Positions 780-52,521 of a DNA stretch of 64,000 nt are shown one piece after another (position 1 is the first letter of the stretch; each line of letters opens with the position of its first letter). The position numbers and the translations under genes were made by a program. Source of the DNA: Lutjanus erythropterus (lineage: Eukaryota; Chordata; Actinopteri; Lutjaniformes; Lutjanidae); assembly GCA_020091685.1 (NCBI GenBank), contig CM034610.1, positions 30,531,134 to 30,595,133 on the forward strand, written 5' to 3'. The notes beneath the pieces were generated by a model, which saw nothing but the letters and a program-made list of their open reading frames with translations, did not search any database and had not been told where the DNA came from.

Positions 780-3700
780 CTGTTGGTCAATGAAGGCAGG
801 TTAGTGCACCTTTAACCATAACAAAGTACTCCATGTAGCAGTCAGGCCTTCCTCAAAATAATGCAAGCATGCAGCTTAGTGTCAGTAATACAGAGAAATG
901 TAGCTTATGTGTACAGTATATCAAACTGTGTACTTCATTTGATGGTGATGTAGGTCACAGCATAAGTATAATGGAGAAGTGTTGGAACCATCCAATCAGA
1001 GCACTGTACCTGTTGTAGTCTACGAATCGTATGAGCAGAGGGTAGAAGGCGTACAGGTCTCTGACCAGTATAGTGAACTGGTCCATGATGAGAAGCTCCG
1101 TCTCTGACATCTCCCCCCTGCCCTCCGCCTTGCTGTGTTCCTCATCCATCAGCACAACTGCTGCTTTCTGCATGACACAGGAACAGATCGCCTTGTGTTT
1201 AGACTGTATGTGTATGTATTACATGAGTCCACCAATATTCTGATGAGCTACATAATAATCTGTAATACATGATGAACAAAGCAGACTCACTTTTTTGAGT
1301 TTCTCCATCAGAGGCAGGAAGTGAGTCTTGAGCAGCTGGGCTTTGGCCTTGCTGATGATTGGCTGAGAGAAGACTGAAACAGAGATTTAGCTTCAAAGTT
1401 TAGTCTGTGTTCATGGTGTTCAGTTTGATGCAGTGACAGTGTGTGTGTTTCTGTGTTGTGAGTGTGCCAAGGTGACTGATAGATGGTCTCTATAATTTAA
1501 AACTTTTCAAAACCTTTTAATGCTACCTGGAATTATTTAAAACCCTCTTCCCATGTTTAAGTGTCTAGAAAACAGTTTTTGAAATTGGTCCAGTTTTGAG
1601 GAGAGCACTGCAACCAGCAGCCATAAACAAGTTACAGTGAAATCTTTGTGTTTCAATAGTGAACCATCAGTGTGTCCACTAAAAGGCTTTGTTTTTGCCA
1701 CTGACAGGCTCAGATAAAATAAAAGATCCCTACAAAGATAGAGCTTTTTTGTTAGAGTAAGATACGTTTTGTTTCACCAGAAAGGGCTGATTTATTGCTC
1801 TCTCCAAACACACCAAACTCCATTTACAAAAACAGTAATTTCATCATCGTCATCTTTATCTTTATCTACTAACTTGACAGAAGCAAAATAAAATTCACCA
1901 AATCTATCAAGCAAGAGGGAGATCAAACATAAAACAAACAGTGGAGAGAAATGGCATGACAGCTAGGAAATTCTAACTGAATTAAAGATTTATCATTTCA
2001 ACCAAACTTCAACAGTTTCTGTGTGTTTACCAGCTAGTCTCTTCATCCAGGCCCCTTCATCGATCCCCAGGTTGTTGTAGATGATCTTGAGGATGTTTCC
2101 TAACAGAGTGTTCATGTGTTCAGAGGTCACAGATGTGCAGCAGCTGTCAGCTTTGTCCGGGTTGCTCTCTGGTCCGTGTTCCCACCAGTGAGACATGTAG
2201 CTGCACAGCATCGGCAACACCACCTGCAGAGACAGGACAAATAAAGAGGACATGTTAAACTGTCATCAGATAATCCTGACATGATGCTTTGTAAAGCGTC
2301 TCACTGACAGTCTGACAAAAAAAAAAAACAGATTTTTTTGAGCATTATTTGGGTTCAGCTAACACAGGATTAACATCTTGAATTCCCATTAGGGGGCAGT
2401 CAGCAGTGCAGCGCTGCAGTGATGCAGTTTGGAAGTTCTGGTCAAGAGACATTGGATTTCCTCAAATATGATGGATTTATTTTTTTTTTTTCAATTTTTA
2501 AAAACTTTTTATTTCCTTTTAACGGGCACAATCATATAGCCCAGACACATGCTCAAAGACACAACAAGGTCATAAATGTCTTTAGGAAGCAGTCTGTTAG
2601 TTTCAGGATCGCCTCGATGTCCATACATAGTTCCAGTAAGAAGGAATGAATAATAATTTTTGTCCATGAGCCCAGACAAAATGGATACATACACAAGAAG
2701 AAAAGAATAACATGTTTGCTCATGCTTATATTAGGACAGGAAAATGAAAAACATAAAAATTAAAAGAAAAAAGTGAAGAAAAAAAAAACAAAATAACATA
2801 AAAAATATAATAAAGAAAATAGTGATAACACAATGAAAAAAAGAAAATATGAAAAAGAAACCCACAAGTTGTTACACTTTCTCTTAGCTCATCAATCAAT
2901 CAACAAAAAATGAGATTATCTTGTTAAAAATAGACCTGTTCTTAACTGTAACCTTGCAGTTATGTTTCCATGTAATAAACATCCTTCACACTCTGCTCTG
3001 TGTTTGCAGCCTCAGCCAGGAGACTGAGATCATCTTCTCAGTATTATAACTAAGACCCTCAGTAGTAATATCTGGTTGTTTATGGTAATATCCCCAGTAT
3101 AAAGTAAGATGGTTTAAAGGGCAATTCTATATATAATCTTTTTTTTTCTTTTTCTGTTTTGACAATATTCTAGCAGTTTTGGCCAGTCACAGAAGATGTG
3201 TGTAGCGTCTCCTTCTAGGCCACAGCCTCTCCAGCACTGAACAGAGGTGCCACTGGATTTTGTTGTGACAAGAGGAGGCCTGAAAAAAAACTCTTCCTGT
3301 CTTTCCAGTCAAATTCCTTCCAGGTGGGGCAATTTATTTTATATACCTCTATACACGCTCCAAGTTTTGATCGGAAATTGCAGTGTTCATCTCCAGTTCC
3401 CATTTTCCTTCAAATCCAAGCTGTTATCCATCAGTTCTTCTTGTCATATCGTGTACGTATGTGACATGATCTTCTTTTAATAGTCCGTTTAATTGTTAAT
3501 ATAAAGAAATGTTCTTTGTCCCATTCTTGTGCTTGTCTAAGTAGTATTGTAACTGTAAATATTTAAAGAAATCAGGGGCTGGAAGGTTGTATTTGTGCTG
3601 AAGTTGTTAAAAGAATATCACGACTCCTCCCTCAAATAACTGCTCAAACATGATCAAACCTTTTTCTTCCCACTTTTGAACCCTGCCTCTAATTTAGATG

Positions 3701-6700: not shown

Positions 6701-9700
6701 CTAACAGCTTCAGTGGATTATCTGGTGGTATTAACAATTATTGAGAACGTTGTTTCAACATTAATCAACATTATAATGAACATGATAAAAACTGAGCACA
6801 GTGCATGCAGCTTGACCTTTGCTGCAGCAAATGAAATGTCAAGTTTATTATCTGTGATCTGTCACTGTCTGACTGAACATCTCATGGAAGTGATATTTTA
6901 CAATTCATAACATTTTAAACTAACAAAATTCATTTAAACAAGTCATTTCAGGGTTTCAAAGTCATGATATTGAGCTGCGACAACATTCATTTCTGTTCAC
7001 GTTCAGGAGCTCACACTGTGTGTGCTTGAGTGTTCAATATAGTTGGCTTAATAAAGTTAATATCATTTCAACTTAAAAAACCAAACTCTAAAAAAGCTCT
7101 CACTTGGTGTGAGGCTTCAGATGGATTCTTTGGGAGATTTTGGTCCTCTTTCTTCACTTAAGGACACTTTTTGCCACAGCTGACTGCTGAACGCAAATCC
7201 ATCATATGCTGCATGTCTGCCAGTATTACCCGTATTATACTACCCATAATTGATTTGGATAAATTATAGGGCTGTCAGTTTAACGCGTTAATTAGATTAA
7301 TTAATTATGCTGCAAATTAACGCGCTATAAAAATTAACGCAATTAATCATGGGTGGAAAGTCAATGCGCAAGCATTTTAAATTTGGCCCATTGAGTTCGG
7401 CACGCGTGTGATCCGCGGACCACATGTGAGCATCATAGTTTTACTGTCACTGTTACTTTTGTATAAGTTATAATACCAGAAATCTCAATGCAGAGTTGCA
7501 GTGAAAAGAGGACAAATGCGTCTGTATGCAGCGCATCTCTGTGAAGAGCGACTAATTTAAAAGTCGTCACATCACCTTGATTGAAATCCAGACTGTAACT
7601 TTTTTCACTGATGTAACTCTGCTATCACAAAGAAACAGATCATAAAACTGTGATGTTCATTGAAACTTTGGTGATATCAGCTGTCTTAACTTCTACACAG
7701 CTCCTCTCTGCTCACCGGTGCAGCTCTGTCTCACCCCGTCTGTGACAGAGTGTGTCTGCTGATTGATCGTGACTTCTAACCAATCAGATGTGCTGCTGTA
7801 GGCGGGACATTGAGTCAGACTACAGAGCGTAGTTGTATATTATACTGTACAGTGTATAATGATCTAATATATGTATAGTATATACATAGTACAGCACTGT
7901 ATACGTTTGAAGTTTTTAATATATTACCATTATCATTACTATTATCATTATTATTACATCACATAACTATGGTGATAATTACAGACAGACAAAGATCAAA
8001 GACAAGTGCATTTTTAAAATAATTTAACTCTAATCCCACCACTTTTTTCTTTTTTGCTGATCCAAAAAATGATCCGATCCGTGACTCAAGCCCGTGATAC
8101 GATTTTTGATCCGTTGCACCCCTAAGAGCGAGGCAAGCTTACTTGGACCTTTGAACGGCAAGTTTATTTATAAAAAGAACAAAGACGGGACTATTAACAA
8201 GAACGCAGTGATTTGTACCTTGTGTATTCAATTGATTAGTCATGCACTACAATTTTGTAATGTCCTAGAATTCAAATTCTTTATTTGGGGACCTTTAGCA
8301 GATATGAGATTAAAATGCGATTAATTAGATTAATTAATTACAAATCCTGTAATTAATTAGATTAATTTTTTTAATCGCCTGACAGCACTAATAAATTATG
8401 AATCAAATGTTCTAGAAGCGTCACCTTGAATTTTGTCTGAGATTCCAAATGTCGCAGCAAACCTCAGTCCAGCACATCCCTCTGGTGCAGCACAATTTAC
8501 AACTTCATTGTTGAATATTTTGAAGTATTTCCACACAAAGCTGGTGTCAGACATGGTGTTGTGTGTCTCATTCAGCCACAAGTTACTGCACTAACTGCAT
8601 TAATGATCAGACGTGTTTGAATTCATTCAATTCATGCTTTGTGCTTGTTAGCTAATTAATTAAAGCACCCAGCCAGTGACAAGTAAGAGCAACAAAACAC
8701 ACACTATCCTGCATGAAAATTAAATCTGAAGAATAATGAAGCTCATGCTAGGTCCTTCAGTCTATGGCAATTTTACAACTGCTTTGCCTCGAGACTGAAG
8801 AGTCGCTGCACCTCAAACTTCGTGTTGGCATGAAACCCAATTCCCCTCCGTAGATGGCGCCTATGGATAAGTATTAGCTAGTTAGATTGGTAGAGTAGGA
8901 AGGAAGTTTACTCTAAAACTGCTGTTGAGACATTTCTGCGGAGAGGGAAATCTTTTTCCGATACCTCTTTTTCATGTCCCTGGACTCCAGGATGACAGAT
9001 ACAAACAAAAACAAAGTGCTGTGTAGCACAATGTCATTTAAATTCCAGCAAACCACTCAGTAGTGTTGACATGCAACCTGCAACAAGAAAGAAGTGGCGG
9101 GGGCGATGTCGTAATTCATTCACCTTCAGTGGGTCGTCTCCTTAAGAGCACTGCCAGCATTCACCATGACACATGACACATGACACATCATCCCTGGTGT
9201 GATGTGACACACACACACATGTATCACAGTTGATGTCTTTCTTTCCTTACCTGGCATCAAGGCTCTGTCCCAGTATCTGCAGACAGTTGACTATGGACGT
9301 GGCATTGTTACCTGGAAAGCAGACAGGATTATGTAAGAGAAAATCCTCTGTGTGCAGAGATCTGTCAGGAATATGACGAATCAGCACTACAGCACACAAA
9401 AACAACAAAACAACAGCCCTCTTCAAATCAATAGGAGCCGTCTGTCTGGGAAAACAAACCTAAAGAATCACATCTGTCATGTGATTTAATAAATAAAAGC
9501 AGATCATCATATTCAAAGAAAAAAGATGTTCCTTTAAAAACATTCATATACATAAACGGGGACATTTCAGGCTGATTAATCCCAGACCTTTTACACTGTC
9601 AGCAGTACTGGAACCAACAATCCTGGCAGCCTAATAAATAATAAACATCTTTAACTGGCCTAAATGTGTCTGTTTCCTGTTGAATCAGGTTTTAATCCGC

Positions 9701-10832
9701 AGAGCTGGAACATCTTTTTACTTTGAGCAGAATGATGTGATGGAACGTTCTCACAGTCTGGATCTGATTCAACAAGTTGCAATACACACACCACACAACA
9801 CACACAGCAGCTGAGCAGAGGATACACACCCACAATATAATGCATGCATGCACACACACCCATGCACACTGAGGATGCTGTTGAACTTTTTCATGTCCAA
9901 CCTCTCTACCTGTGTCTCTGTCTCACACAAACGCATTATTACTCATTCTAGAGAGTTCATGTCATACCAAAAAAAAACACTTGAACAATTATTAATATCA
10001 ACACTCTCATTCCTTTTTTTGAAAATGTACTCTTTAGTGATTTATATGTATGAAACATATGTAATTTATTAAATGTTTTGGTTTGCTTCAATTTCTAAAA
10101 CAGCCTTGTCCCAGACAAGAATTCACAACTTCAAACTATTTTAAAAAATGTCTTAAAAGTCTTCAAAATGTAAAACTAACAATACCTGCTGATAACATGG
10201 GTATAAAATGTGCTCCTATAATCATCTTTGTTTTACAACAGATTTTTTAATGAAAGTGTTGGCCCATTAAAATTGTGTCCGAGATTTTCCAAAAACTGAT
10301 TTAATCAGGCATAAAAAAGGGTTAGCTACAAGGACCCCTGTCTCACTTCCTGGTTTAAAAAATGGTGGGAATACTGCTCAAACACTGGTTAACTTTATTA
10401 TATTTTTTTAACAAATTCATTAAAAAGCAAGTTGTGCAAGTGGGTCATAATTGGGTCCAAGCAGTTGCAAATTTTCACATTTTTAGAGCAGAAGAGCAGA
10501 TGCTGATAAATTGAAAGATTAAAATGATGAGAGAATCTTGGCTCTTTGCCTTTTTTGAGATAAATGCTAAAGAATAATGTTACAAAATCACCTTGAGTTC
10601 AATAAGTGCCATTATTCCTGCCTTAGCATTAAGCTTCTGACTTAAAATCCTAACTTGGCCTAAACAGAATGTGGATTATAGCACACTAAGCATGAAAGGG
10701 ATACAGGTATGTGAGTGTGTGTGCGTGTGCGTGTGCGTGTGTGTGTGTGCGTGTGTGTGTGTGTACGTGTGTGTGTGTGTGTGCGCGTGTGTGTGTGTGT
10801 GTGTGTGAATATATATATTTATAATATATATA

Positions 10833-10870
<38 letters not shown>

Positions 10871-12761
10871 CATATAATATAGCAGTTGGGATTAAAACAC
10901 TATATGAGTACAGCCTTTTATGTTAGCAAACATTTGGCTTTTAAAACTTTCAGTATTAATCATTTTCAAACATTCACTCTTCTGTTAGCTCTGTTTTTGG
11001 TCTTTACTATTCCTGATAGGGATGTTCCTGACAACTAATTTCCCTACTGATTAAACACATATTTTAATTTAGACTAGTCGACTACTCTAACAGTAAGAAA
11101 GCACTCAGAAAGCAGTTAAAATTGAGCACAATTTATTAATTGATAATTAATGATAGTATTTCTGGTGCCGACTGGCAAAGGTGGTGATGTTTAATCATAC
11201 AGACGACTAATCACACGCATCCCTAATTCCAGAGGGCAACAGCTGTCTTTTTAGCTGCTAAATGCTCTACTATGTTCACCAGCTAGTCTCTAACTGTGCT
11301 GCTGGACTGGTAGTGTAAAGGAGGTTTAATTGATTTTTCTGACTGATTGTGATGTGAGCAGTGAGACTGAACCAAAACAGTCAGGTTGGGGGCTGTTAAC
11401 GAAATATGAGATGAAATAACCATTATTATTAAGCTCAATAGAGCTGCAGACTTAGTGATTATAGCTGATCATCATATAGATCAGTTCCCATCATTTCCTC
11501 TCAGGGCCATCAAGATTATCATGTCTTAATGTGTCAACATATTCATTTTTATATTTCTAATAGGATCAGGATCAGCTCAGCGTGTTTCATTTGTGTCACC
11601 ATGAGATTGTAAAATAAAGTTCTCTCAGGGACATGTGTGGTGTTGGCAGGACTCCTGGTTCGGCACAGGATGAAACCATTCACACTGAGAACGACAGCAG
11701 AGAGGGACAGAGGTGGAAGCATTAGGCATGAACGTCCTTACAAATAAGGATATCCTATATCTGACAAGAACTCCCAGTTTGCAGAAAGACTGAAAGGATT
11801 CAATGAGAGGAGAGAGAAGGGAGGTAGAGAGGAAGCAGAGAAAGAGATAATCACATGAGAAAGAAGAGAGAGGACACAGAAACAGCGGTCTCCAACAGAC
11901 TCCCAACGTCTTATTCAACATTTAAACAAGAGTTTGTGGTGTATCCTGCAATACTGCCACTGTTTTATCTGCCCGTTGTCGTATCATTTGTCACCTCACC
12001 TGGTCACCATCTCCTTCTCCTTGTTGGAGGCGTAGCCACCACTGCTGATTGGATGGATGGCTGTGGACAGGAAGTACAGCCTGTGGTTTTTAAAGTACTG
12101 ATCCACCAATGGCAGCACGACCTGAGGTTAAATAACACAGATACTCAATGTTATTGCCTCCAGTAACTGTCTGCCTTTAAAACAGGAAAAAACTGTGTCA
12201 TAGAAGTCTTTGAAGCTTAGCTTCCAACATTTCAGAATCATTTGAAGGTGTGACTCAGGACAATCTACACGTATGACCACTTCAATTAGAATTGTGTGTA
12301 CATACATTGTGTACATACACATACTTTTTTTAACTCTAACGGTCTCCTTTTCTCCTGGTTTGTCCTGAGCAACATCATGATCATTTATTATACTGTTGTT
12401 TGTGTCTTTGTCTATTACAGTACAGTATTGTTATTACTAACTGTTTTTCTACTGTTTTACTTATTTCTGATGTTGTGAAGTTTATGTATAATTTTAATTT
12501 GTGAAGTTTGATATGTAACATCAACCTGCTGTGGGACTACAGATGGAAATGCTCATTAACATGTACTGTACCTATTTTAATAAAATAAATGGAATTAAAT
12601 GAAATTCCATACACAGAATATGTTCAATTTCACCACCAGTGAGTCAAATGAAAATACCAACATTACAACATTACAGTACATTAAAAGTTATGATAGAAAA
12701 GAGTCAAATATAAAATAACAAGTGCAAATTCAAAATAGCTGTGAGCAGCTACTGTGGTGAA

Positions 12762-12810
<49 letters not shown>

Positions 12811-15375
12811 CACTTGACCTCTGGCTAAAGGTCCACTGAGCCACCAATCACCAGTCACCAAAGGGTGCGTGGGTAAATGCAGGGAGTGAAACATGAACTC
12901 TCTGCATACAAAATGCTGCAGGATGGGACCCCATGGTCTCTGCTGAGGACTCATCCTCTGTCACGTGAAGCACCTCCACCAACTGAGCTACTGGATAATA
13001 TTATTTCTGTATTACACACTGTTCCAGTTCAGTTGGTGCTTCAGGACATGCCAAGCCATATTTCAAGATTGTATTTCAACTTTATTAGGCGATGTTTTCC
13101 TCAAACATTAAATAAAAACACTCAAAGGTCAAAGCAAACATACTAAAATAGCCAACTGACTTCTGAATGAAATAAAATGAGTTCTGACCTTTCCAAGAAC
13201 AATCTGCTGCTCATGAGAATCTTCTCTCCTTGGTCTCGTTCCACATCTGAACAACAGGCAGAAGAAGACAACAAGATCAGGACAGATTTACATTCTGACA
13301 TTTATCTGACGTCTGCACACTGCCTCAGGAGGTTTGATCTTATTCACTAAAACATGTCTGCAGGTCAGTTTGTAGTGCAGAGTATTCAGTATTCAGATAA
13401 TACTGACAGAACCCTCTGTGTTCTTCAGTTTTAAACTAAACAGATGGAAAATTTCTTTTCTAAAACCATTTTCACACTGGACTCGTACCTGGTGGCTACA
13501 CGTGTGATTTAGGAATTTATTTCACATGTTTCTTCATTCATGTCTGTGGATTTAAGGAGCCTATTCACAGGAGCCTATACATGTAATAACATGCTTCTCA
13601 TCGCTGGTGTGTAGGTTAACACACAAAATAACTGGGGTGAATGTTTGGACCTTCTGCAAACTCCATTTATAAACACATTTCACACAAAGTTTTGTTTTGT
13701 TCAATAATTTCAGGGATTCACCAGTGTTTTCTCCTTTTTGTTCTTCTCTTAGGTTTATTAATTTTATGAGTGAGAGCAATCTGACCTACATAACAGAAAA
13801 ACCTTTTCACAGTTCACTAATTGTACAACACATAATTATTAATCTATCTAATATAATATAATATAATATAATATAATATAATATAATATAATATAATATA
13901 ATATAATATAATATAATATAGATTTTTTATTTCACTAGGAGGATGCACTTTAACTGTTAACATAGTTTACAAGACATCCCACAACTACAAATTTGACTTT
14001 TATCTATTTTATATCATCTTTTGTTTGATAGTTTAGGGTTTTGAAATCAGTCATTTCAAAGACTGGGTTGTGACCCACAGTGGAGTCACAGGAGATTATT
14101 TAGTGGTCAAATAAAATAAAGACTATGGAAGAAATTCTGCAAATTTAAGATTTATATCTGCAGTATGGCTTTTATAAAACATTTAAAATGTATTTAACAT
14201 GTGTAAATGTTTTCAATAACATGATATGTTAATAAGGTCAAACAGGTAAGATAAGGTGATATGGAGGAGAAGTAAAATGGTCAAAATTCTCTTTTATACA
14301 TAAAAGAACTCTTCACAAGATTTATTGATAAGGCCTGTTGTGAATCAGGTCGTGAAGGGTTGTCATTTTTAAAAATTGGGTCCCAGAGAAAAGTTTGGGA
14401 ACCACTGTTTTAACCTATTAGTTGGACAAAACAATTAGTTTAGAAAACATCTAGAAGCCATGACAGACAAGATAAAAACAGAACTAACTTTATGATTTAA
14501 AAATAATACTGTTGGTTAAATATTTTAAATAAAAGTATAAAACAAATAGAAAACTTTTCCTTTAAGCTTTGATCAATTGGTAAAAATAACAAAGTTTATT
14601 TTCCTTTCCAACAACCATTTGCTAAATAATAACAGGACTAAATAAATTAATTCTTTGTCTTAATTTTCAACTCCTTTATTATTTCACTTCAATAACTTTT
14701 CAAATCTGTGCTGACACAGCATTTCAAAATGTGGTGTTCAATATCTTTTATCATGGTGTCTCATATGGCACAACACCTGTCCTTATATAGTGTTTAGGGG
14801 CGTTACCTATGCTAATAACAAATGATTGACCACGCCCATCCAGTTTTGCTCAAGCAGGATTCATCATTCAACTCTTGACTGAAAACAAATTTAGGTGGTT
14901 AAGAATGTTTGGTACATCTGGAGCTGACATCACTTGTTTTTGAGAAAACTTAAGCATGTTGCTGCATGAGGCTCAGTGTGTTTGTGCTGCTGTCTTACAA
15001 AACCCTGCACCACCTTTCAGAGGATGCTCCTTGCTTCAGGAACTCAGTGCAGTCGAGCACAAACTGGCTGTTATAACAATTTACATGACCTTAGCAGCAT
15101 GAGTATTTTGATTATAAAGCACCATCCTGTCTGCACCAGCCTCATAAATCTGTCTCAGAGCTCAGTTACACACAGAACTTGGCATGCAAAGCATTATATT
15201 ACTATATTACTACTCAAACCTGTCACATGTTTATTATTCAGTGAATATTGTCTCACCAAACTCCATCATGTGTTGGTGTGCCTGGTCTCGTGTGATGAGC
15301 TGCTGGAGGAAGGTGTAAGCAAAGCGTTTCTCTATAGCTGGAGTGTCCAGCTCCTGCGACACCTCTGCAAACAAC

Positions 15376-15434
<59 letters not shown>

Positions 15435-18400
15435 CTTAAAGGATTTGGATTTGGTGGACTACAATCATTTCTCATATTACCCATAATCACATGGTTCTCA
15501 AAGAGCCAAAAATCCACTCAGAAAATTCAAAACCAGTGTCTCTTTCCAAAAATCACAACCTGGTTACTTAAGATAAATAGCACTACTAAGCCAAGACACA
15601 AGTATGTATATATATTTTGATTTTGCAGTGAACTGCCCCTTTAACCTATCAAACTCATATATTATTCAAATATTCTTCAGAGTAAAATGTAAAGGCTGCT
15701 GTGTGTCCTACCTGGACACAGTATAACCGTTGATCTGGAGGAACTTGAGGATGTCTTGTGCTTTCTCTGTCTTTGGATTTCTCTTTGGCAGTCAGTGTAT
15801 CGTAGGAACCAGCAGAGGATGGTTCCCTCCACCTGAGACAACAACAACACAACTGAGATAACAGGTCAGGCTGACACACAGAGGACACTCACTGGTTTGA
15901 GCAGTGGTTTCAACTGATGGAACCACACAAATATGAATATTTAGCTGACTGAATTAGTGTCCTTGCCATCAGCTCAGAGGAAATGAGTCTTCATTGGTTC
16001 TCTTACTGACTTATGTCACAGTTTAATTTGGGATGGAACAGTTTTATTATCTTATCATGATTTTGAAAAAAAGTGAAGCATTGTGTTATATCTACCTTTG
16101 GCTTCCAGCTCCATTTTCTTTTTCCTGGCCCAGATATTATGATAATTCTCTGCAAGCAGCTCTGCCATAGCCTGGACAAACACAGTGTTACACAAACACT
16201 ATGTGACTCTGTTACACTGCACGTATCAGTTCATCTACAGCCACGACAGCTTATAGTCTTAATACTGGTGTCAATGCACTTCCCAGTAACACTTTATATT
16301 AAGGTTCCTGTGATAATCTTATTAACATTATTATGTGCTAATATGACTATTTAAGTGTTTATTATAAGATACCAAGATGTGTGTAAGCAATTAAAAGGAA
16401 CTTGTTAACAGTATCAGGAAAAATGTATGAGATTTATAATGAGGTACTGTAGTATTGGAGAGATGCCCTGGTGTATAAATCTTGTTCCTCAAATGAAAGA
16501 AAATGTTTGTTTGGTGCAGACCCCAACAAATATCACATCATTATGATTTTAATAGTTTTTCTTTTTCTTTTCAGTAAACATGAAAATTGTGAAGTAAAAC
16601 TGATCATTCCCACTAGTCATACTGCATATCACAGTATCAGTCAAAATAATTTTAATATGACTTTTTATGCAGCCTCATTATTAACTCACGCTTATTACAA
16701 AGACCTTAATATAAAGCATTACCCTGACATATATATAGTTTTATTCTTTTTTGTATATAGTAACCTACCTGCATGTCTCTGGACAGTGTAACGTTACTCA
16801 TGTCAATGGGTCTGGGACTGAAAGCTGGAGCTCCTTCAAAAGACAGCTGTAGAACACAGGATATAAATACAGATGTACTGATGTCACTTTTCAAATGAAT
16901 TCCCTCTATAGAAAAAAAATGTAGATTAAATTTGTGGGTGCATATGCGTGTCTATGTGTCAGTGCTCTGGTGTGTTTGTGTGTACCTGGCTGGCCTGTGA
17001 TATCCTCCTGGACTTGTTGTGGAGGCTGGCGGGGTCGCCCTCTCTGATCCTGTCGATGCTCCAGCCCCACGACAGCATGGTCTTCAGAGACTCTCTGACC
17101 GGCCAGCAGTACGCTTCCTTATCCTGTAAGATCACCAGCAAACTTTAGCCAGCAATAAACTACACAACACTGTAACACATTGACATATAAGTCAGTCAGG
17201 GTGTGCAAGAGACAGTATTTACTGCCTCCAAATGGGTTTCCTCTCTTTTTAAAAGATCAGGACCTTTTTACAGCCATCTGTTAATCAGTAGAATAGTGTC
17301 AAACTATTGTGAAGAATGTCTATCATGTCACCCGTGTCATTGTGCATGAGACAAACTAAATGAGGAAAAACTGCCAACTCCTAAAGTTAAAAACTCCATT
17401 GGGAAGATTTCAACATTTTAAAGTGGGCATGTCATAATCCATAATGGATGTAGCATGCTGTTGCAAGGTACCGAACAAATGTGCCTTAAAGTTGAAGATT
17501 GATTAATGGGTGGATGTCTTGATAATACTGGTTGCAACTGGTTGTTTCAGGCCTACATCAGCACACGTCATGTTTTGTTCTAAATGAGTGGATTTTGATA
17601 TGAGGACATAGAGACATGGGACGCCTTGGCTGAGTCGTCAGCAGTGGCTGTGGGTTTGATTCCAGCCTACAGACCTTTTCTGCATATCTTCCCCTCCACA
17701 CAAAACAAAACAAAACAAAACAAAACAGTGGCATTATGTCAAGAAACTGGCATTTAAAGGCTTAAAAAAATGGAAAATAATATTAATGTATAGTATTTTT
17801 TATAGCTGTTTTAGGAGGGGGCATTGCACAAAAAATTAAAATGCATGAAAGTCAGTGTTGTTGCTAATAATCTAGAATCATCCCATAAACTGAGCCTGAC
17901 CCAAAGCTGGTGCTCATAGGACCTAATACACAAATTCTGCAGCCATAAATTCTGATCTGGCTCATATTTGATGACACTGTGCAGTAACACAGCTGAACGC
18001 AACACTCAGATACCTGCTGAAGTTAAATCTCTGTATTTGACATTTTTGCAGATCCTGCAGCAACATGAAGGCAGACAGACAGATACACACACACCTTCTC
18101 AGAGAGGCCTTTGTATGGTTTCAGTAAAGTGTGGCTCTTGGAGATTTCACACATCTGTTCCCCAAATGACCAGCCGTTGGAGAACTAGAGAACATAAAGA
18201 AAAGATATTTCAAGATGTACACATTTTCTTCATATTTATAGAACTTGGGTTGGGTTAAAAATCTATTCTGATACAGTTAATCCAAGAATCACAATGTTAA
18301 AATAACGTGACTTGATTACATTCTGTTACTTTTGGAAGCTAATGTTAGCTTTTGGTCTGTGAATCTTAATGTTAGTGGTCGGTCTTACCTATAAATGTTT

Positions 18401-21400
18401 CTTTAAATTAGATGCTGAGAAAAGATAATGGTGAAATTTTTACCTGGTCAAAGCATTTTTAAGGGGATAATAAATTGGCAACTGTCAGATTAGATGTTTT
18501 CACTGAGGCCAGAGTGATGCTGAGACTCATGAAGAGTTGTAATGTTTGTGCACTGCATGTGGCAGCATAGTCTTTATTATAAAATGTATTTTAAAATTGT
18601 AATCCTGCTCATAATCCCCATTTTCCTAAATGTAACTGTAATCTATAATCCTGTTAGATGCAATCTGTTACTCCCTGAGCCTGTACAGAACTACTGATAC
18701 ATGGTTAAAACAAACAGGACTACCACAATTCAAATGTGTGACGTGTCGCCTCCTTACCTTTTCTATACACCACTTCTCATGGATGTGTTCTGCATATCTG
18801 GTTATGAAGTAGTCCAGTTTCTCAGGGACAGTCACACTGATGAAGACAGAAAAGAAACAAAAACACATTCAGATATCTGAGGTCAGCTGCTCTGAACTGC
18901 AGTCAAAGTCAAAGCAACAATCCTCTGAATTCTTTTTCATAACAGTGAATGATTTGATCTCTTTTTTTGGGGTGACAAATTTCCTATCATTGCAACTTTA
19001 AGGATCTGGATTTGCACCAAAAACAACTTCAACAAATAAACATGATGACAAAAACCTTTTTGACAAAGAGGAAATAAACGTGTTGCATACTTGGCGGTGT
19101 CAGCAGGCTGTGGAGTGAAGTTCCCCTCTGAGTCCATGGACGACTGTTTCTCCATCATGGCCATGTAGTTGGACTCCATGTAGTCTGGAGGAAGAGCTCC
19201 GGCCACAGCACTGAGGCACGGTAACGCCAGCTTAAACAGCTCCTGGTCATACCGCTGCATCACAAGAACACACCCACAGCACACTGCTTCATACATCATT
19301 AGACATCGCTGTTAAGATTCTACTGCAGGTTTAACCCTTTCTGGTTCTGATGACTTTAAGACTTCAATATGATGCACCGCCCAGACTACTTCATTCTGTT
19401 TATCACCTAATTCATTTCATTTTCATCTAATGTCCTACTGAAAAGAAGACCTAAACTTGGTGCTGACCTTGCGTGACAGAGCATCAAATATTCCCCAGAA
19501 CAGTTTCCTGGAGAGATGAAGCTCCTCATCTGATGCGGCTCCAAAGTTGCCCCAGCCTCCAGCCAGGCAGTAATATTTCCAGCATCGCTCATAGTGATTG
19601 GTCAACAGCTGGGGGGGAGTCAAGAGGACACTCATCAACCATCTGCTGGATGCAAGAAGCATTTTGCCGATGGCACTCGTCCATGATTAACATTTTTTTT
19701 TTCAAATCTGAAAACAGAGATGCTGAAGCAGAGGAAGTGCACTTGTAGGAAAAGATCGTGTCATTAAAATGAATATTTTTTTATGTGCTCAATCAAAGTT
19801 CAGAGAATTTTGTCTGGCTCTGTGTGAGTATTGTCTGAGGTAATATGACAGTATACATGTGTATATTGCATATGGTAGTGTAAAAAGAATGTTCTTATCA
19901 CTATTAGTGCTAAGGTATGGTCCCTGACTGTAGATTGATTTGAAAAGCGCTTCAGAGTTCTCACCTTCAGAGGCATCTTGGTGTGTTCATTAAGCAGAGG
20001 AACATCAAACACCAGCCTCCTCAGCAGGTGCTGCATCATGGAAGGCCTCAGCTTACTGCACAGGATGACAATGACAATGATGTCAAAATTATAATTCCCT
20101 GCAATACTGCAAATCATATCACAATGGCAAAATCAGTCTAAATAATTGCAATTAGATGATTTTTCAGAATCGCTAAGCCCTAATTTATATCTCACTATTT
20201 ATTTATTTATTTATTTATTCTCTCTTTTTCTATCATTTTCATTATATGTGAAATCCTCCACTAGACCAAAGGAGCTTGAGGGGTTAACAGCCAAGCTTCC
20301 CAGGACAGAAACTGAAACTCCACATTAATTCCTGACAGTTGTTTTCTGTGCTGCCTCCAAATTCCCGTGAACAGTCATTAACCTGCACTTCCACTCCAAT
20401 TAACACGGCTGCTTACTGATGAAAATCCCAATTTTCATGCAGTGGCTGTTGAGAGTGAGGCACACTTGCAATGAGAAGAAAAAGTGGTGATGCTCACAAA
20501 ATATAGTTAAAGTGACTCAACTTCAGATGTTAGTGTGGCTGAAGTCCATGGATGTTTTAGTAAGTGAGTTTCAAATTAAAGTTTAAATAAAATGAGCTGA
20601 TACTGACAGAGCTATAACCAGAAATCAGTTTAAATCCAGTAAATGTCTTATCATTTGATTTTACTTCATTAACTCTGTTCACAAACCAAATCTACCACTT
20701 TCCTACCAGCTCCAATAATTTACACTGTAGGATTGTGATGACTCTCACACATACAGTACATGTGTCTTGTTTTATTTCCAGTCTTACCCACAAACAGCCA
20801 GCAGACACTCCTCGATGGCGTCCCTCTGGGCCTTGGTGAGGCAGCAGCCTTTGGACAGGCGGTAGACCGTGTGCAGCAGGGAGTCAATGAGTGAAGCGAA
20901 CGGCTCTGTCCCCGCAAACAGTGGAGCGCATTTGGTGAGGAGAGGCAACACGGCCGTACACAGATACCTGTTGAGGGCCAGTGCCATGTCTGTGGCACTG
21001 AGAGCAACCTGATGCAGAGACAGAGAGAGGAAGAGAGGACAGGTGGAGAAAAGACTGGATCTGAGTGTGTGATCAGGCTTGGTCTGGAAAAAAATGTGCA
21101 TTCAAAGAGTCAGAGAGTCACAGTCAGTTTTTGCGCCATTTGCAGTAGGTACTACACGGGCAACGGGGTGGAAGAGCCCATAAAACACATGACCACGGCA
21201 AATACAGACAATAAATAACAGTACAAAATAAAACAGAGGATAATAGGGGAAAGAATGCATGGGTACATCCAACAATCAACCCAACTCAAAAGAGAAAACA
21301 GAAAGAGAGAACGCAAAGATAGCTTTTAAAGTGTGTTATAAAGGGCATATACATGTGACGCCCAAAAGGCAGATTATGCAAGTAAAAGCAGCAAAAACCA

Positions 21401-22007
21401 AGGCTTAGAAGTTGAAGTGCATGGCATTTAACATGCAACTTTGAGAAATTACTGAAGGACAATGAAGAAGCAGCAGACACACTTACTGTGTCCAGAGAGG
21501 CAGCAGCTCTCAGGTCCGGTAAGAAGCCGACCTCCAGCAGGTGTAACAGGAAGTTCTGGTCTTCTATACCATAGACTCTGTCCAGAAACAGGACCATGGC
21601 TGCTTTATGGTCCGGACAGAAACCAGCTGACATGTCTGGTTCCACCACCCCCCCATCTACCCATCCACATAACAACACACACAGACGAAGATCAGATTAA
21701 AGTCCAGATTTAACCATCAATCAAGTCAGTGCATTTTATTTGTGTTTGTACATGTTGATCTTTTATGCCACACTTGACCGTTTCAGATCAGGACGTACTG
21801 ATTGATGCATGTCAGTGTCAGGTGTGGTGGGCTGTGGAGGGGTGGCTCACCTTTAGCCAGGCTGGGCATGGAGAACGGGATGCTGATGACTCCCACAAGG
21901 TCTTCAATAGGAATCAGAGACCTCAGAATGGCCCTGATACGGATCGCTTCACCTTTACCAGCATGGATCAGCTGATACAAAATGGTTTAGGGTTAATGTG
22001 AGTCTCT

Positions 22008-22039
<32 letters not shown>

Positions 22040-25000
22040 TGTGTACAGTGTGTTGTCACTCACATGCATCTCTGGAGCGCAGCGGCCCAGCAGGTCAATG
22101 AGAGCAGCATAGAAGGTCATGATGGCATTTCCCATGTGGATGGTGTCATCTTCCTCTTCCTCCATGTCACTGCTGAACACACACACACAAACACAATAAC
22201 ATGTCACCAGTGTGAACTGACCTAGAAGTACTGTCTCAGTACACAGTGGAAGGGAGGTATGGTACTGCATCTCAACAGGCGCAATTAACACCTGGCTGAG
22301 ATGCAAGTAACGCCTGGTTGAGCTGCGAATAACGCTGGGTTGAGATGCAATTAACACCCAGTTGAGATGCAGCTAACGCCTGGTTGAGACACAAATTACA
22401 CATTGTTGAGATGCAATTAATGCCTGGTTGAGATGCAAATAACACTTGGCTGGGATGCAAATGTCACCAGGTTGAGACACAATAAACACCTAGTTGAGAT
22501 GCAACTAATGCTTGGTTGAGATGCAAATAACTCCTGTTAAGATGGAATTAACACCTAGTTGAGATGCAAATTAAGACCTGGTTGAGATGCAAATAAGGCC
22601 TGATTAAGACGTGACTAACACCTGGTTGAAATGAAAACAAAGCTTGATTAAGACACAACTGACACCTGGTTTAGATGCAAATAACGCCTGGTTGAGGTGC
22701 AATTAATGCCTTGTTGAAATACAATAAACACCTGGTTGATTTACAAATTATGTCTCATTGAGTTGCAATTAACACCTTTTTGAGATACAAATAATGCCTG
22801 GTTGAGATGCCAACAACATCTGTTTGAGACACAACAAACATTTTGTTGAGACTCCAATTACACCTCGCTGAGACACAATGAGCTTCTCAATGAGAGACAA
22901 TTAAGGCCTGGTTGGCATAAGATGCCTCTGTGAGGTGTAACACCTTGTCTTTTCACAGCTCATTCACATGTTTTCATAGTGTGCTTCTTGAATGGCATCC
23001 TACATTTCTGGGACATTTCTGGTCCATTTGGCCTTCCATGCTGTAAAGAGTGTTAGTGCCTCCTTATTTCTTCTTACATGAGACCATCTTTTGAATGAAG
23101 GGACACTTGTGTTACCAACATGATCAGCATGAGGGGTCATGTGATGACCTAACCTGTACGGCAAAACTTGTACTATATAAAAGGCAGGTTGCTGTCCCAT
23201 AATTCCTAACTCAAGCAACTAATGACTACGAGTGTGACTGTTCCTGTACAGCTGATTTCTATCTAGTCAGTCAATAAACTGATCCGGGATTGATAATACC
23301 TGTGAATTATGATGCCAGGTAATATAGGTCAATAACAAGAAAAAGTGGAACAGTGTCAAATTTGATCATTTCATACTGTAACAGCAAATGAATGAGACGT
23401 GTCTTACAGTGTCTTGCTGCTCTCAGATGTAGGAGAGGGACCGTCTCTGGAGAGATCCTGAGAGATCTTAATGGCTTCCTCCATCGCTGCCAACAACCCA
23501 TCACCACCTTCACCCCGGAGGGCGGGGCCAAAACATTCTGGTCGGCGAATCAGAAGCCTGACCACAACGTTGGCATTCTCCTCCACACTTTCACCTGGTG
23601 GCCAAAGATATATTCCATCACACTGCTGATTGAAAATAACAGATGTGACCTGCAACACAATCGACCATTTGTGAATTGAAAGGGTTTAAATTTTCACCGT
23701 TGCAGAAGACAGCGAAGCGCAAGAAGTCGAGGTAGCGTTCACCCTCCACAGGGTTCCAGCCGATGTCTGGGTAACCTTTACGCACCAGCATCACACAGCT
23801 CTGCAGCCCACAGCCGGCCAGGTACTGCACCACCTGCAGGCACACAAAGACACAAGGAAAATGTGTTAATATCACATCGTTTCACCAAGAAATTGAGTTA
23901 AATTGAATAAGGCTTTCACTTTTATACTTATCTGTTCAATTAAGTAACCACTGAGTTTCTGATAAATTCTGACATACTTTTGTGCACGAATGTGTGTTTG
24001 TCAATCTCACCTTCTCCAGGTCCGGTTCTCTTAAAGCCAGCGCCAGTTCATTATTATCCATGACTGATGCTGCAGCCACATCCAGAGGAGTGGAGCCTCG
24101 CATGGAAGGAGACGCTGAGGAGAGAAGATACAAGTAAGAGGATTAGAGTCTATTATCAATAAAACCACAGAGGTGTATCTGCTCCTGGATACAGCACCAC
24201 TCAAACAGTCAGTGTCGTCTGTGAGCAATAAGAGATGAAGCTGTACAAACTAATTAAGTTTCACAAAGTACCCAAACTCTCATCAGTAAACAGCACACAG
24301 CTTCTTCCTGTGCACACATGAGCATTTAAACTACAACACTGGTGAGCAGGAAAGAGTGAGCAGAGGATCTACTTTTTCAAAAACACAGTATGAGGAAATC
24401 TGGTTGTTAGAAATCATTTAATTAATTTGACAAAGAGGTCTTAAAGAACTCAGGGACTCAATCCCAAACTGGCGCCTGTCCCCTTGCACTATCCACTCCC
24501 CCTAAGCTTGCTTGTTCACATGGAGGTTCGGCATATTAAGGGCCGTCCCAAACCAATTAGGGAAGAGTGTAAACCCTTACAGGGATGGTTCACCCAAAAA
24601 TGAAAATTCAGTCATTATCTGCTCACCCTCATGCTGATTACAGGTCAGGGAGTTTCACAGGAAAACAGTGTTGCAAAATCTTCCAAACAATGGAAGTGAA
24701 TGGTGACCAGTTTTCAAATGTAAAAAAAAAAAAAAAAAAAAAAAAACATAAAATGCCTCCATACTGCTCATCCGGTGTAATCCAAGTCTCCTAAAGCCCT
24801 GCCATGCCAAACATGCTACAAAAATGTTATTTACACCATGTTTTTAGCCTGAATCTTCACTGTAGATCTTTAGCTTGGAGTCACGTTCACATGCACACTG
24901 TCTGAACTGGACATGTGTGGTGTGACGGTGTTTAAACAGCATGTCAGGAATTTAGGAGACTTGGATTACAGCAGACGAGCAGTATGGAGGCATTTTATGT

Positions 25001-33298: not shown

Positions 33299-36200
33299 GA
33301 TAAGACATACAATCACACCTAATGTTGAGTCAGTGACTGACTGACTGTTATTGGAGGCTCCTTTGTGACTTTTCAATGTACTGTTAAAGAATTGCTGAAA
33401 CTTAAATGGGCAGAAAAATAGTGAATCTGCAGTTTCTGTTAATTGCTCTTTTATCATTGGTGTGTTTTAGAACAGGTGGAGTGTTTCATCAAACCAAGAA
33501 AAGGTCTTAAAAAGGTCTCACTGGGTGTCTGTTTTTATGCAATTTGGCTTATTCAGGGCTCTGCAACTTTTACTGTCAAAAGAGACATTTTTGGCTGAAA
33601 AAGAAAATATGAAATCTGTCTGAAGCTACAACTATTTGCCTCAGAGACTTTCTTTTTAGATTTGACATCCATTGCTAGGCAAGGAAGACTTAAGACTAGC
33701 CACCAGCAAACTTTAGAGTCGTGGACATAGGCTATGATGCACATTTTAGTTGAAGAAATATTATCTTTTTTTTTCATTAAGTGTACAGGCAGCACATTTT
33801 TACAACTGGAGAATGTAAGAATCACTTTCAGCCTACAATGATACTTGAATTAATATGTAAAAAAAAAAAAAAAGCTGCAGGTTGCAGACCCCTGAGCTAA
33901 TTAGTGTTGCCAACATGCTAATTGGCTTTAAAGATAAGAATATTTATCATAAAAACCTTTACATGTAACTGATTTTTCATCAGAATACTTTAAACATGCT
34001 TATTCCAAGTGAGGAAGTTTGTGAGCAGTGTTTGTGACTTCTTCTAAGTGAAAGTAAAAGGCAGAGATATTAATTTGTTTCCTGCACATGTTGTACTGTT
34101 GCAGCTCTTAGGGAGGATGTGTCATGTCAGACAGCTTGTCTGCAGATACTAGAACTAAAAGTGCTGCGTATATAGTTCAGCGTCTGAGACACAGAGCTTG
34201 TTTTGTCACTCATGAGGTTGCTGAAATGATTTGGTGTATAAGACACACACAGCCACTAACAAACTTTTCATCACTGGGTTGAACTTGGTGATGCTGTGTA
34301 CTTACATGAGTTATTTTGGTGATCATGATGGTTGATTTTATAGTATTTATTAACTGATTTTATAACAACCACACCATCCTAGCACCTGGATGTTTGAGAA
34401 ACATCAGAAGTAAATGATTGCAATGTGATGTTTTCCGTAACTTGAAATGCTTTGCACAGTTCATCGCATGTATAATTATATATAGATTTGGAAGACACTC
34501 TATATTGAGTTTTCTATAACTTTAAGAACAGCTTTGTAATGTTTTTTTTGTTTTTTCCTCACATGACCTGACAAAGGCCTCTGCATGATGACATGGCTAC
34601 ATGTCTGATATAAATCTAAATGTATTTCTCTCTTGTTTTAATGACTTAAGAACAGGTGAAAAAACTTTTACTATATTTAGTGTCAGTTAGCATTAAAATA
34701 CATTTTTGGCCAAAAAAAAGCCATGACAGTAATATTCCATAACTTTATGTATATATATGTGGAGGAAAACATGAATACTTTTAGTCTTTCTTTAGAACAC
34801 GAGGTAGTGGTCCAGTTCAGCCACTTGTGGCCAAAATGATCTGTTTTCCTGTTTCTGTGCAAAAAAAACTACTTTTTTCACCTTTCAGAACACTTTTTTT
34901 CACCTGTTTTAAAGTCATAGTCAACACAGGAAGGAAAACAATTTAGATCAGATATTATTTTAAAAAAATACTATAAATGCTATGCTTTAAATCACTATCA
35001 CTGATGTGATGTGGTAAAACATAGAGGGTTTACTGAGTCACCTGGAGTTTTACAGGCTCTGGTAGCTTCATCTGTAACAGCCCTTCTTTAGGCATGTTCC
35101 TCCCTCCATCTTCTCCTCTGCCGTCACTCTCCAACTCCTTCAACACCTCCAGCTCCTTGTGCGTGTCCTCGTGTCCTTCTCGTCTTTCACAGAACACAGA
35201 TGGTTCAATCAGTCTGAGGATGTTCTTCAGGTCTCCGTTTTGGAAAACTCCCATGATCAGCATGGTGTAGAAGAGCTTGATGAGGGGGACGAAGAGAAAC
35301 TCAGTGCTGCCCCCTATTGGATCTCGTACATGCATGCTGCCCTCCCGCACTGCCTCTGTGAGCATCTCGATGGTTTTAACTTTCAGTATATCTAAGGGGA
35401 ACTCAGGGCTGTACTGGAAACAGTCTCCTGATCCTGATCCGTTGTTGCCGTTGTTACGATATGTTGGTCCGCTCCCGCAGACAAAACTCGGGGATGAGAA
35501 GTGCATCCTGGGTCTCAGGGAGGTGCTGAGGCCGATGCCTGGCAGGCCGTGTTTCTTCTTCTCGTCTGGAAACAGGGTGATGCTCTTGGTCTCGTCTGTC
35601 ATGGGAACAATGTACTCATTGTTCATCATGAGGCGAGCCGTGGCGTAGCTGCTCAGGTGGATGTCGATGAGGAGGTCGTAGTAGCCGGCACGGAGCAAAC
35701 CTGCGGGTGACAGACAGAAAGATAGTGTACCATATTACTATATTTTTTAGGTCTGGGACTTTACACAGATCTCCAGATTCAATACAATCATGATACTTGG
35801 TTGCTGATTCAATAAGTATTGCAATTCTTAAGGACTGTGATTCTACAAGAATTGCATTTCAATGTTATGATTTATTGACATTTTTGTTTGCTTTTTTAAC
35901 CTCAGACAATGGGAAAAAGTTGAATCATATCCTACATGATTGCATATCATGATTCATGTTTCCAAAAACAATTTACATCATGTCAGTCACTCCTTAAATT
36001 TTATTACAGAAACATAAATACAATAAGAAAAAAATAACATTCTTCAAATATGGAATTGAATCTGGATATAAAACTGGTGAATAAATGTTCAATAGAATAA
36101 ATAAAATATATACACTTCAATGAAGTAAAGTGCTACAGCTGTTCCTGCTCATCAAGTGGTGAACAATAAATAAAATATAAAATAGAAATATATATTCTGT

Positions 36201-49879: not shown

Positions 49880-52521
49880 ATAGATAATTATTGACAGCGA
49901 TGACCAGAGTTTACAGTTTTACACATTACACATGATGAGACACTTTTGGTTTCATTCAGGACATACTTTATTGTTTGTTGACAGTTTGTTTGCTAATTTG
50001 AATGGACACACTGAAGTTGAATGACATTTGGTGATTGGTTTGGTTTGACTTTAATCAATTCATGTTGTAGCTCTGTTCTCTTTCCTGAATCCTGGCCGAG
50101 TTCCCCGCTGGCCAAATGATATGGCACCAGTTAAAATGGCCTCTATATTGTGACAAGCAGGAAGTGGGAAAGACCAAGTGTACGTGCCAAAGGGGAAATG
50201 TGCCATTTGAATACTAGTTAAATGTATTTATTTGAGGACCTTCAGGTAGTTTGGATACTGAATACTTTCTTCTTTTGAATTCACTGTGTGAGCTTAATTT
50301 GCAGTCTAGAGTTAATGGTTTGTTCCTGCCCTTCAGTGTGTCTGTGAAGGATCGTCTCTGTCGACATAAACCTTCCTTTTGACTCTTGTTAGGTCACTTG
50401 TGTTAAGTTCAATCCTCAGGTGCTTTTTGTATAGCTGACCTAAACTTTTCATGCTTCCGTGCTTTTTATCACCTGTGTCCTTGAGCCTACCTGCCTGATC
50501 CCTGACACTGATGCAACAGCAGGTAAGCAGTGTTTTAAAGTTGGAGCAGGTTGAGGTGGAGCTGATTTGAACTGCTTTATGTATTGCTGAGTAGTAGAGT
50601 TGCATAAGCATTTGTTTTCTACAACTCTGTGTTACATTAACGCACATTTTTTGAACTACATCTTCTTCAGATACTGTCTTGCACATTTCAAATATTCTTA
50701 GACTGTACACTGAGAACTTTTGCTCAAAAATACTTTGAACACTGCTGCACAGAACTGTACAGCCTTACATATTGTACATATTTTTATATTTCTTTTTATG
50801 CTTCTTGACATGCATTTTTATACACCAAAATCACCAAGTCAAATTCCTTGTATGTGTAAACCTGATTCTCAATAAAAGGTACAATGTTAGCATAACATAG
50901 AAGCAATAAGTAAAGTATAAGTACCTAAAATGGTGAAGGTTTATATGCTTGGTTGTTAATGTCCACCACACTCAGTTATAATACATTTTGAACAATCAGA
51001 TCTTTCAGGTACATTATGAATGAACAGACACAACAACACAGACATACAGAGGACAGCTAAGGACTGAAGGACAGTGGCAAAACAGCCGCTCCCACAAGAT
51101 CTGCGTTGTGTCCCACAGGACCCACAAGATCCCGGGCTCAATGCAGGCCCAAAGGCTGGGTCGGGACCCACAGGTGGGTCACAGGAGATTGTATTTGGGT
51201 CAACGAATAAGTAAAAATCTATGGAAGAAATTCAGCAAATTTAAGATTTAAAAGGAAGGAAAAAGGAAAAAATAAAGCCTGTTAATTCTGCCAAAATGCA
51301 CTTATCGTGCCACATTTATGAAGCAGGCTAGAATGTCCTATATTTTTTTCCTGGTGAGAGGAAATAAAATAATAAAATGGCCAGTTAACTTAGCATAAAT
51401 AAATGCATTTCTCATTTATTAAGTATTTAAAATGTGTATGACTTCAGTAAAATGCATCAAGACAATACAAGGTGATGCACAAATGGCAACAAAAATGTTT
51501 ATTCATGCACAAAATAACTCTTCCCAAGATTTATTAGTAGGGCCTCAATTGGGTTCTGATGGTTTGTCATTTTTAAAAAGTGGTTCCCCAGAAAAAAAAA
51601 GTCTCAGGAACACTGTTCTAATGCATACCTGTTATTGTAATAACATAATGAAATTACATTCTTTTTCTCTGCATTTAAACATAACAATTGGTGACACCAT
51701 GGTGGCGCCAATGGACATGCTTGGATTCAGTCTAGTCTACAGTCATGTGGGAGGACTTCTTCACAATCCAGCGGTTATTTTGAGACATCGTCATCACTGA
51801 TTCACTCATAAACAAAATAAGTGTTACAATTTTCACAATGGAAAAATCCTGCATCAAAGTTTGTGTTGGGTCCTGCAGGACCTGTGGATGCTGAACCCAC
51901 TGCAGTTCTCTTGACCAGTCAGCAAATCACACAGGTCACTCAACAACTGACAGACACAAACGAAACACTAAGACATCTCTTCGTCAACATATAAACACGC
52001 ACGCACACACGCTAAATAGTGGCCTGTATTTAGCAGTGTGTGTCACAGCCTCCTACCTGTTGGATGCCATAGGTCCAGCCCTGGCGGATGCGGTCTCTTG
52101 CCCAGACATTGTGTGCGTTCTCAGCCAGTTTGTCCACCATGGCTTCCTGGGTGGAGGTCAGTTTGATGTGACTCAGGTCCAGAGGAGCAGGTTTATAACC
52201 ACTGGACAACTCATAGCTGCACAGATAGAGTCGAATCACTGGATCGTTAGCTAGCCAGCTGCTAAACAACCTGCATGTGCTGAAGAGCCTCTGCTGCTCT
52301 GATCAGCTACAGTATGACTTTTTATTTGTTTATCTGAATTGTCCTACTGTCCTCATCACTGTCTCATCACATCATTTAAGTATCATCCTGCACCCAGAGT
52401 GAGTTGTGGCATTATTTAGCTGTTAGGTGACTTACGTTGGTGACAACTTCATGCTCTTGACTTTCTCTACAGCGTGTTCATCTGCAAGGCCAACATGACA
52501 ACCCAAGGCCAGAAGGGTTCT

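Follow-up and report, generated by a model that had tools for sequence, protein, structure and literature searches.

The window analyzed here is a 64,000-nucleotide stretch of Lutjanus erythropterus DNA (assembly GCA_020091685.1, contig CM034610.1, positions 30,531,134 to 30,595,133 of the forward strand), the minus strand of which carries a ryanodine receptor (RyR) gene with bases missing from a group of adjacent exons. When 108 residues joined from clean exons were compared with the RyR chains of the PDB, scores of up to 230.7 bits were obtained with RyR2, against 175.6 bits with RyR3 and 173.2 bits with RyR1. Similarly, a protein search with the joined exons placed fish RyR2 at the top (1,969 matches among 2,326 scored candidates, of which the best 120 were listed), and among the fish matches listed all those bearing a RyR name were RyR2. 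Judged by sequence similarity, the gene is ryr2, being nearer to RyR2 than to RyR1 or RyR3. Outside the damaged exons, its product is 98.33% identical to RyR2 of Larimichthys crocea (P0006; 2,467 of 2,509 aligned sites) and 97.78% identical to RyR2 of the sea bream Sparus aurata (P0001; 2,637 of 2,697 sites). Identities this high mark the gene as that of a percomorph fish. The same protein is thus encoded in all three fish, but the two reference proteins run through exons w49–w53 without missing residues, unlike the gene in the window.

Missing bases in exons w49 to w53

The whole minus strand was aligned to residues 471–3420 of sea bream RyR2 with a dynamic-programming model that allows introns and frameshifts, and a second alignment was made with a mammalian RyR2 reference, the part of which over the damaged exons is identical to PDB 8uxc_A 2864–3046. 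Throughout, the zone denotes positions 11742–15832, which hold exons w49–w53, and the number of an exon in the alignment (x) is its w-number plus one (x50 is w49, x52 is w51, x54 is w53, and x55 is w54). The exon lengths expected in Table 1 were derived from the splice phases in the sea bream alignment.

Table 1. Exons of ryr2, premature stop codon, and simple-sequence arrays in and next to the zone
Feature	Position	Strand	Details
ryr2 exon w49	15712..15832	-	121 bases, 124 expected; lost: 1 base near 15805, 2 near 15768
Premature TGA	15792..15794	-	present in the sequence; in frame after the first w49 deletion; tblastn stretch 15833-15711 shows the stop
AC array	15378..15431	.	27 copies, 100% matches, 0% indels; perfect, adjoins w50
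ryr2 exon w50	15257..15375	-	from the near CAG acceptor: 108 bases, 116 expected; 8 missing (5 + 3)
TAATA array	13849..13920	.	14.4 copies, 100% matches, 0% indels; perfect, inside the zone
ryr2 exon w51	13189..13246	-	58 bases, 65 expected; five frameshifted codons missing 1, 2, 1, 2, 1 bases
AC array	12761..12807		95% matches, 0% indels; not in the clean-stretch sum
ryr2 exon w52	12000..12121	-	122 bases, full length, no indel; one private residue
ryr2 exon w53	11742..11789	-	48 bases, 50 expected; one base gone in a T run near 11787 (call at 11787-11788), one G at the donor junction
ryr2 exon w54	9251..9311	-	frameshift call at the first codon (9310-9311), an echo of the base lost at the w53 donor

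As shown in Table 1, exons w49, w51, and w53 are broken in frame without any assumption about splice acceptors, and the frameshifts fall in the same exons with the sea bream and the mammalian references. A first-pass annotation, made from the DNA letters alone, had named these three exons and w50 as damaged. Its net shortfalls of 3 bases in w49 and 2 in w53 were reproduced, as were the clean state of w52 between them and the premature TGA in w49; the 4 bases that it counted as lost from w51 are in fact 7. The frame of w49 is lost between its two deletions and restored past the second, and its 38 aligned residues are all identical to those of sea bream, as are all 16 residues of w51 that could be aligned between the breaks. 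Overall, 20 of the 477 bases expected over w49–w53 are missing, in ∼13 events by our reading of the DNA, and no insertion was called, which bears out the earlier description of the damage as localized and deletion-only.

The case of w50 depends on its acceptor. Read from the near CAG acceptor, the exon is broken in frame and is, as the first-pass annotation had it, some 8 bases short; read from a TAG acceptor 11 bases upstream, it is 119 bases long and open, with phases (2 to 1) that fit and altered residues. The alignment model took this open path and called no frameshift, at the cost of misfit residues at two places. Conceivably, then, w50 alone is real as written, an altered but open exon spliced at the upstream acceptor. 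We consider this very improbable: of the 13 residues at the misfit places, 3, with some at each place, are absent from the 120 fish RyR2 proteins listed; reading from the near acceptor, with bases missing, gives agreement with the fish residues; and both neighboring exons are damaged.

The rest of the gene is clean, as had been claimed for the exons outside 11.7–15.8 kb. In the sea bream alignment, the other 56 exons (x2–x49 and x55–x62; 8,180 bases) yielded a single frameshift call, the echo in w54. Chance is far from explaining why all of the loss falls in five neighboring exons out of 61. The damaged patch measures ∼4.1 to 6.8 kb, extending at least over 11742–15806 and at most over 9312–16095. 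The comparison with ryr2 of related fish that the first-pass annotation had proposed found the relatives intact: of the 120 fish RyR2 proteins listed, 101 have 159 residues from w49 to w54, and the other 19, ranging from 141 to 166 residues, presumably reflect differences of gene model or alignment.

Residue changes and the origin of the missing bases

We counted as private any aligned in-frame residue that none of the 120 listed fish proteins has in its column. Codons that are frameshifted or split were left unscored, and the 13 residues at the two sites of loss in w50 were excluded beforehand. Many of the 120 proteins are isoforms of a species already represented (e.g. Hemibagrus wyckioides), and the set therefore amounts to fewer independent witnesses than 120. 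By this count, 1 of 133 residues in the zone is private, compared with 2 of 2,697 in the rest of the gene. The rate in the zone is higher, but a single residue carries no weight, and on these alignments the zone bears no clear substitution load. The private residue is a Tyr (12032–12034, in w52) at a site that is His in each of the 120 listed fish proteins. In w53, another His is replaced by Tyr, a residue that 1 of the 120 also has there and that is thus not private. Either change could be real or a base error.

Because the loss is deletion-only, is restricted to a single patch while the rest of the gene is clean, comes without a matching load of substitutions, and lies where long A/T runs are scarce (see below), we favor an assembly error: with a probability of roughly 93%, ryr2 would be intact and the missing bases due to local error in consensus calling or gap filling. 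The pieces between the losses match fish RyR2 almost perfectly. These results support the suggestion of the first-pass annotation that the pattern is of the long-read gap-filling type. On this view, ryr2 here would be an ordinary percomorph gene, and the bases would be missing only from one patch of the assembly, most likely built or closed with a small number of noisy long reads, if long reads were indeed used; the consensus would have dropped bases, mainly in short homopolymers, and then been left unpolished. By inference, the bases were lost during sequencing or when the consensus was called.

Some precedent exists. Nanopore errors in homopolymers are mostly deletions (PMC8486125), and uncorrected long-read gap fills may produce frameshifts (PMC7476103). 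The gene-fragmenting indel errors of long-read assemblies addressed by tools such as Kastor (PMC12007338) and Polypolish (PMC8812927) resemble the present ones in their small indels, frameshift, premature stop, prominent homopolymers, and conserved gene. However, those two tools concern small or bacterial genomes, whereas here 4% of the coding bases are missing from one patch of a fish gene. Error-prone long-read gap filling as described for TGS-GapCloser (PMC7476103) would, if uncorrected, leave a local patch of errors, as here, although in our case the former gap is only presumed, and it contains a clean exon and two clean arrays. Nothing on this locus turned up in the literature, as far as the extracts retrieved go, in searches not made by species. 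As an artefact, the patch would matter only locally and be of little biological interest; automatic annotation of the assembly would nevertheless probably cut ryr2 short at this point, skip it, or flag it, and its loss could be reported by a naive scan.

The first-pass annotation had offered a real lesion in one ryr2 paralog as the alternative, that is, a copy of the gene gathering deletions in a decaying stretch, for example after duplication. In pseudogenes in general, decay long enough to produce ∼13 indels should also bring many amino acid changes. Disabling mutations are indeed present, since the frame is broken as given and a TGA lies in it, and the otherwise invariant His of w52 is changed; relaxed constraint on residues is not seen, with 1 private residue in the zone, and the rest of the gene is strongly conserved. 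Because ∼13 indels occur without an accompanying load of amino acid changes, neutral decay is disfavored. The likeness to a neutrally decaying pseudogene ends at the frameshifts and the premature stop, as the damage here consists of deletions with no insertion and is limited to five exons of the 61, which is unlike neutral decay as generally understood. As for duplication, zebrafish has two ryr2 genes, ryr2a of the nervous system and ryr2b of the heart, but the same source gives zebrafish as the only teleost with two visible ryr2 copies as of 2011 (PMC3262159). Overall, we regard a real loss of function as very unlikely. More generally, missing bases without a load of private residues, scored against many relatives, provide a cheap test for telling assembly indels from gene decay.

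A real but recent clustered event, in which a single deletion-only mutational episode struck one haplotype of a living and essential cardiac calcium-channel gene and spared the middle exon, would account for many deletions without a substitution load. No process known to us would scatter ∼13 small deletions over these exons, make no insertion, and leave an exon among them untouched, and an error process explains the same pattern with less; we therefore give such an event hardly any credence. RNA editing and programmed frameshifting were set aside, as ∼13 separate sites would be needed.

Homopolymer runs and clean stretches in the zone

An assembly error that dropped bases mainly in homopolymers should be considered against the introns as well. 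With exons and repeat arrays masked, homopolymer runs in 11742–15832 were compared with those elsewhere in the window by a one-sided Fisher test. A/T runs of at least 6 bases numbered 3 of 1,444 in the zone against 141 of 20,951 elsewhere (9.7 expected; p 0.015), and 3 against 12.8 expected when the edges were widened post hoc to 11000–16060 (p 0.0016). For A/T runs of at least 5 bases, 15 were found in the zone where 24.6 were expected (p 0.029).

These counts were set beside simulations. Without deletion, the mean was 9.7 A/T runs of at least 6 bases and 32.1 G/C runs of at least 3; homopolymer-biased deletion at 4.2% lowered these to 4.8 and 26.7, and uniform deletion gave 10.3 and 33.8. 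The chance of 3 or fewer A/T runs of at least 6 bases was 0.33 under homopolymer-biased deletion, compared with 0.026 under no deletion and 0.011 under uniform deletion. Uniform random deletion was therefore rejected as a model, since it leaves long A/T runs undiminished, and the intron counts call for a bias towards homopolymers. Thus, the introns lean towards homopolymer-biased loss, short of proof.

Several observations weigh against an assembly error of this kind. The first-pass annotation had placed the losses in short homopolymers, which fits most of the single-base losses but neither the 5-base loss in w50 nor the two-base losses. In the introns of the zone, G/C runs of at least 3 bases show no significant shortage (25 against 28.7 expected; p 0.29), A/T runs of at least 4 are not short at all (80 against 67.1 expected), and 15 of the 518 sliding stretches lying wholly outside the zone are equally poor in long A/T runs. 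Stretches of 19801–24600 are poorer still, the poorest lying near 19.8 kb, and the exons there are clean. Because these stretches are run-poor yet clean, run counts alone do not mark damaged sequence.

The type of error is likewise not a simple fit. Raw nanopore reads of bacterial data carry mismatches at 1.2–2.2%, insertions at 1.1–2.4%, and deletions at 1.6–2.7% in one study (PMC8486125). Because these error types are near-equal, deletion-only loss at 4% would require either loss of bases at the consensus step or a platform of another kind. Moreover, w52 (122 bases) and the two perfect arrays (126 bases) together make 248 bases without an event, for which, if 13 events in 477 bases are taken as a constant rate, P is about 0.001, the arrays having been chosen by us; for w52 alone, P is 0.036 at the constant rate. 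The clean exon and arrays argue against evenly noisy sequence, but an even rate is not required of error that is patchy or dependent on context.

Repeats and remaining exons of the window

One interspersed repeat is shared by the zone and the rest of the window: 14057–14154 and 14293–14413 match 51150–51250 and 51502–51621 with 81% and 73% identity, respectively, and the copy in the zone shows several gaps. Counting deletions by comparison of repeat copies was tried and given up, as this only sizeable repeat common to the two is too diverged; a third match, of 27 bases, was not used. A stretch at 12821–13000 that by eye looks tRNA-derived, like a short interspersed element, gave no match in the window, ARAGORN being run with its bacterial code and Rfam at gathering thresholds.

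At the ends of the window, a frameshift call at 690–691 in the last, cut-off exon, where the alignment path overruns the donor at the window edge, and the short stretches x1 and x64 are edge effects. Compared with sea bream, exons x18, x27, and x38 show a difference of one or two complete codons, presumably ordinary variation. At 659 bases, the exon at 35042–35700 is the largest of the ryr2 exons found in the window; it is two codons shorter than its sea bream counterpart and shows several residue differences near its 3′ end.
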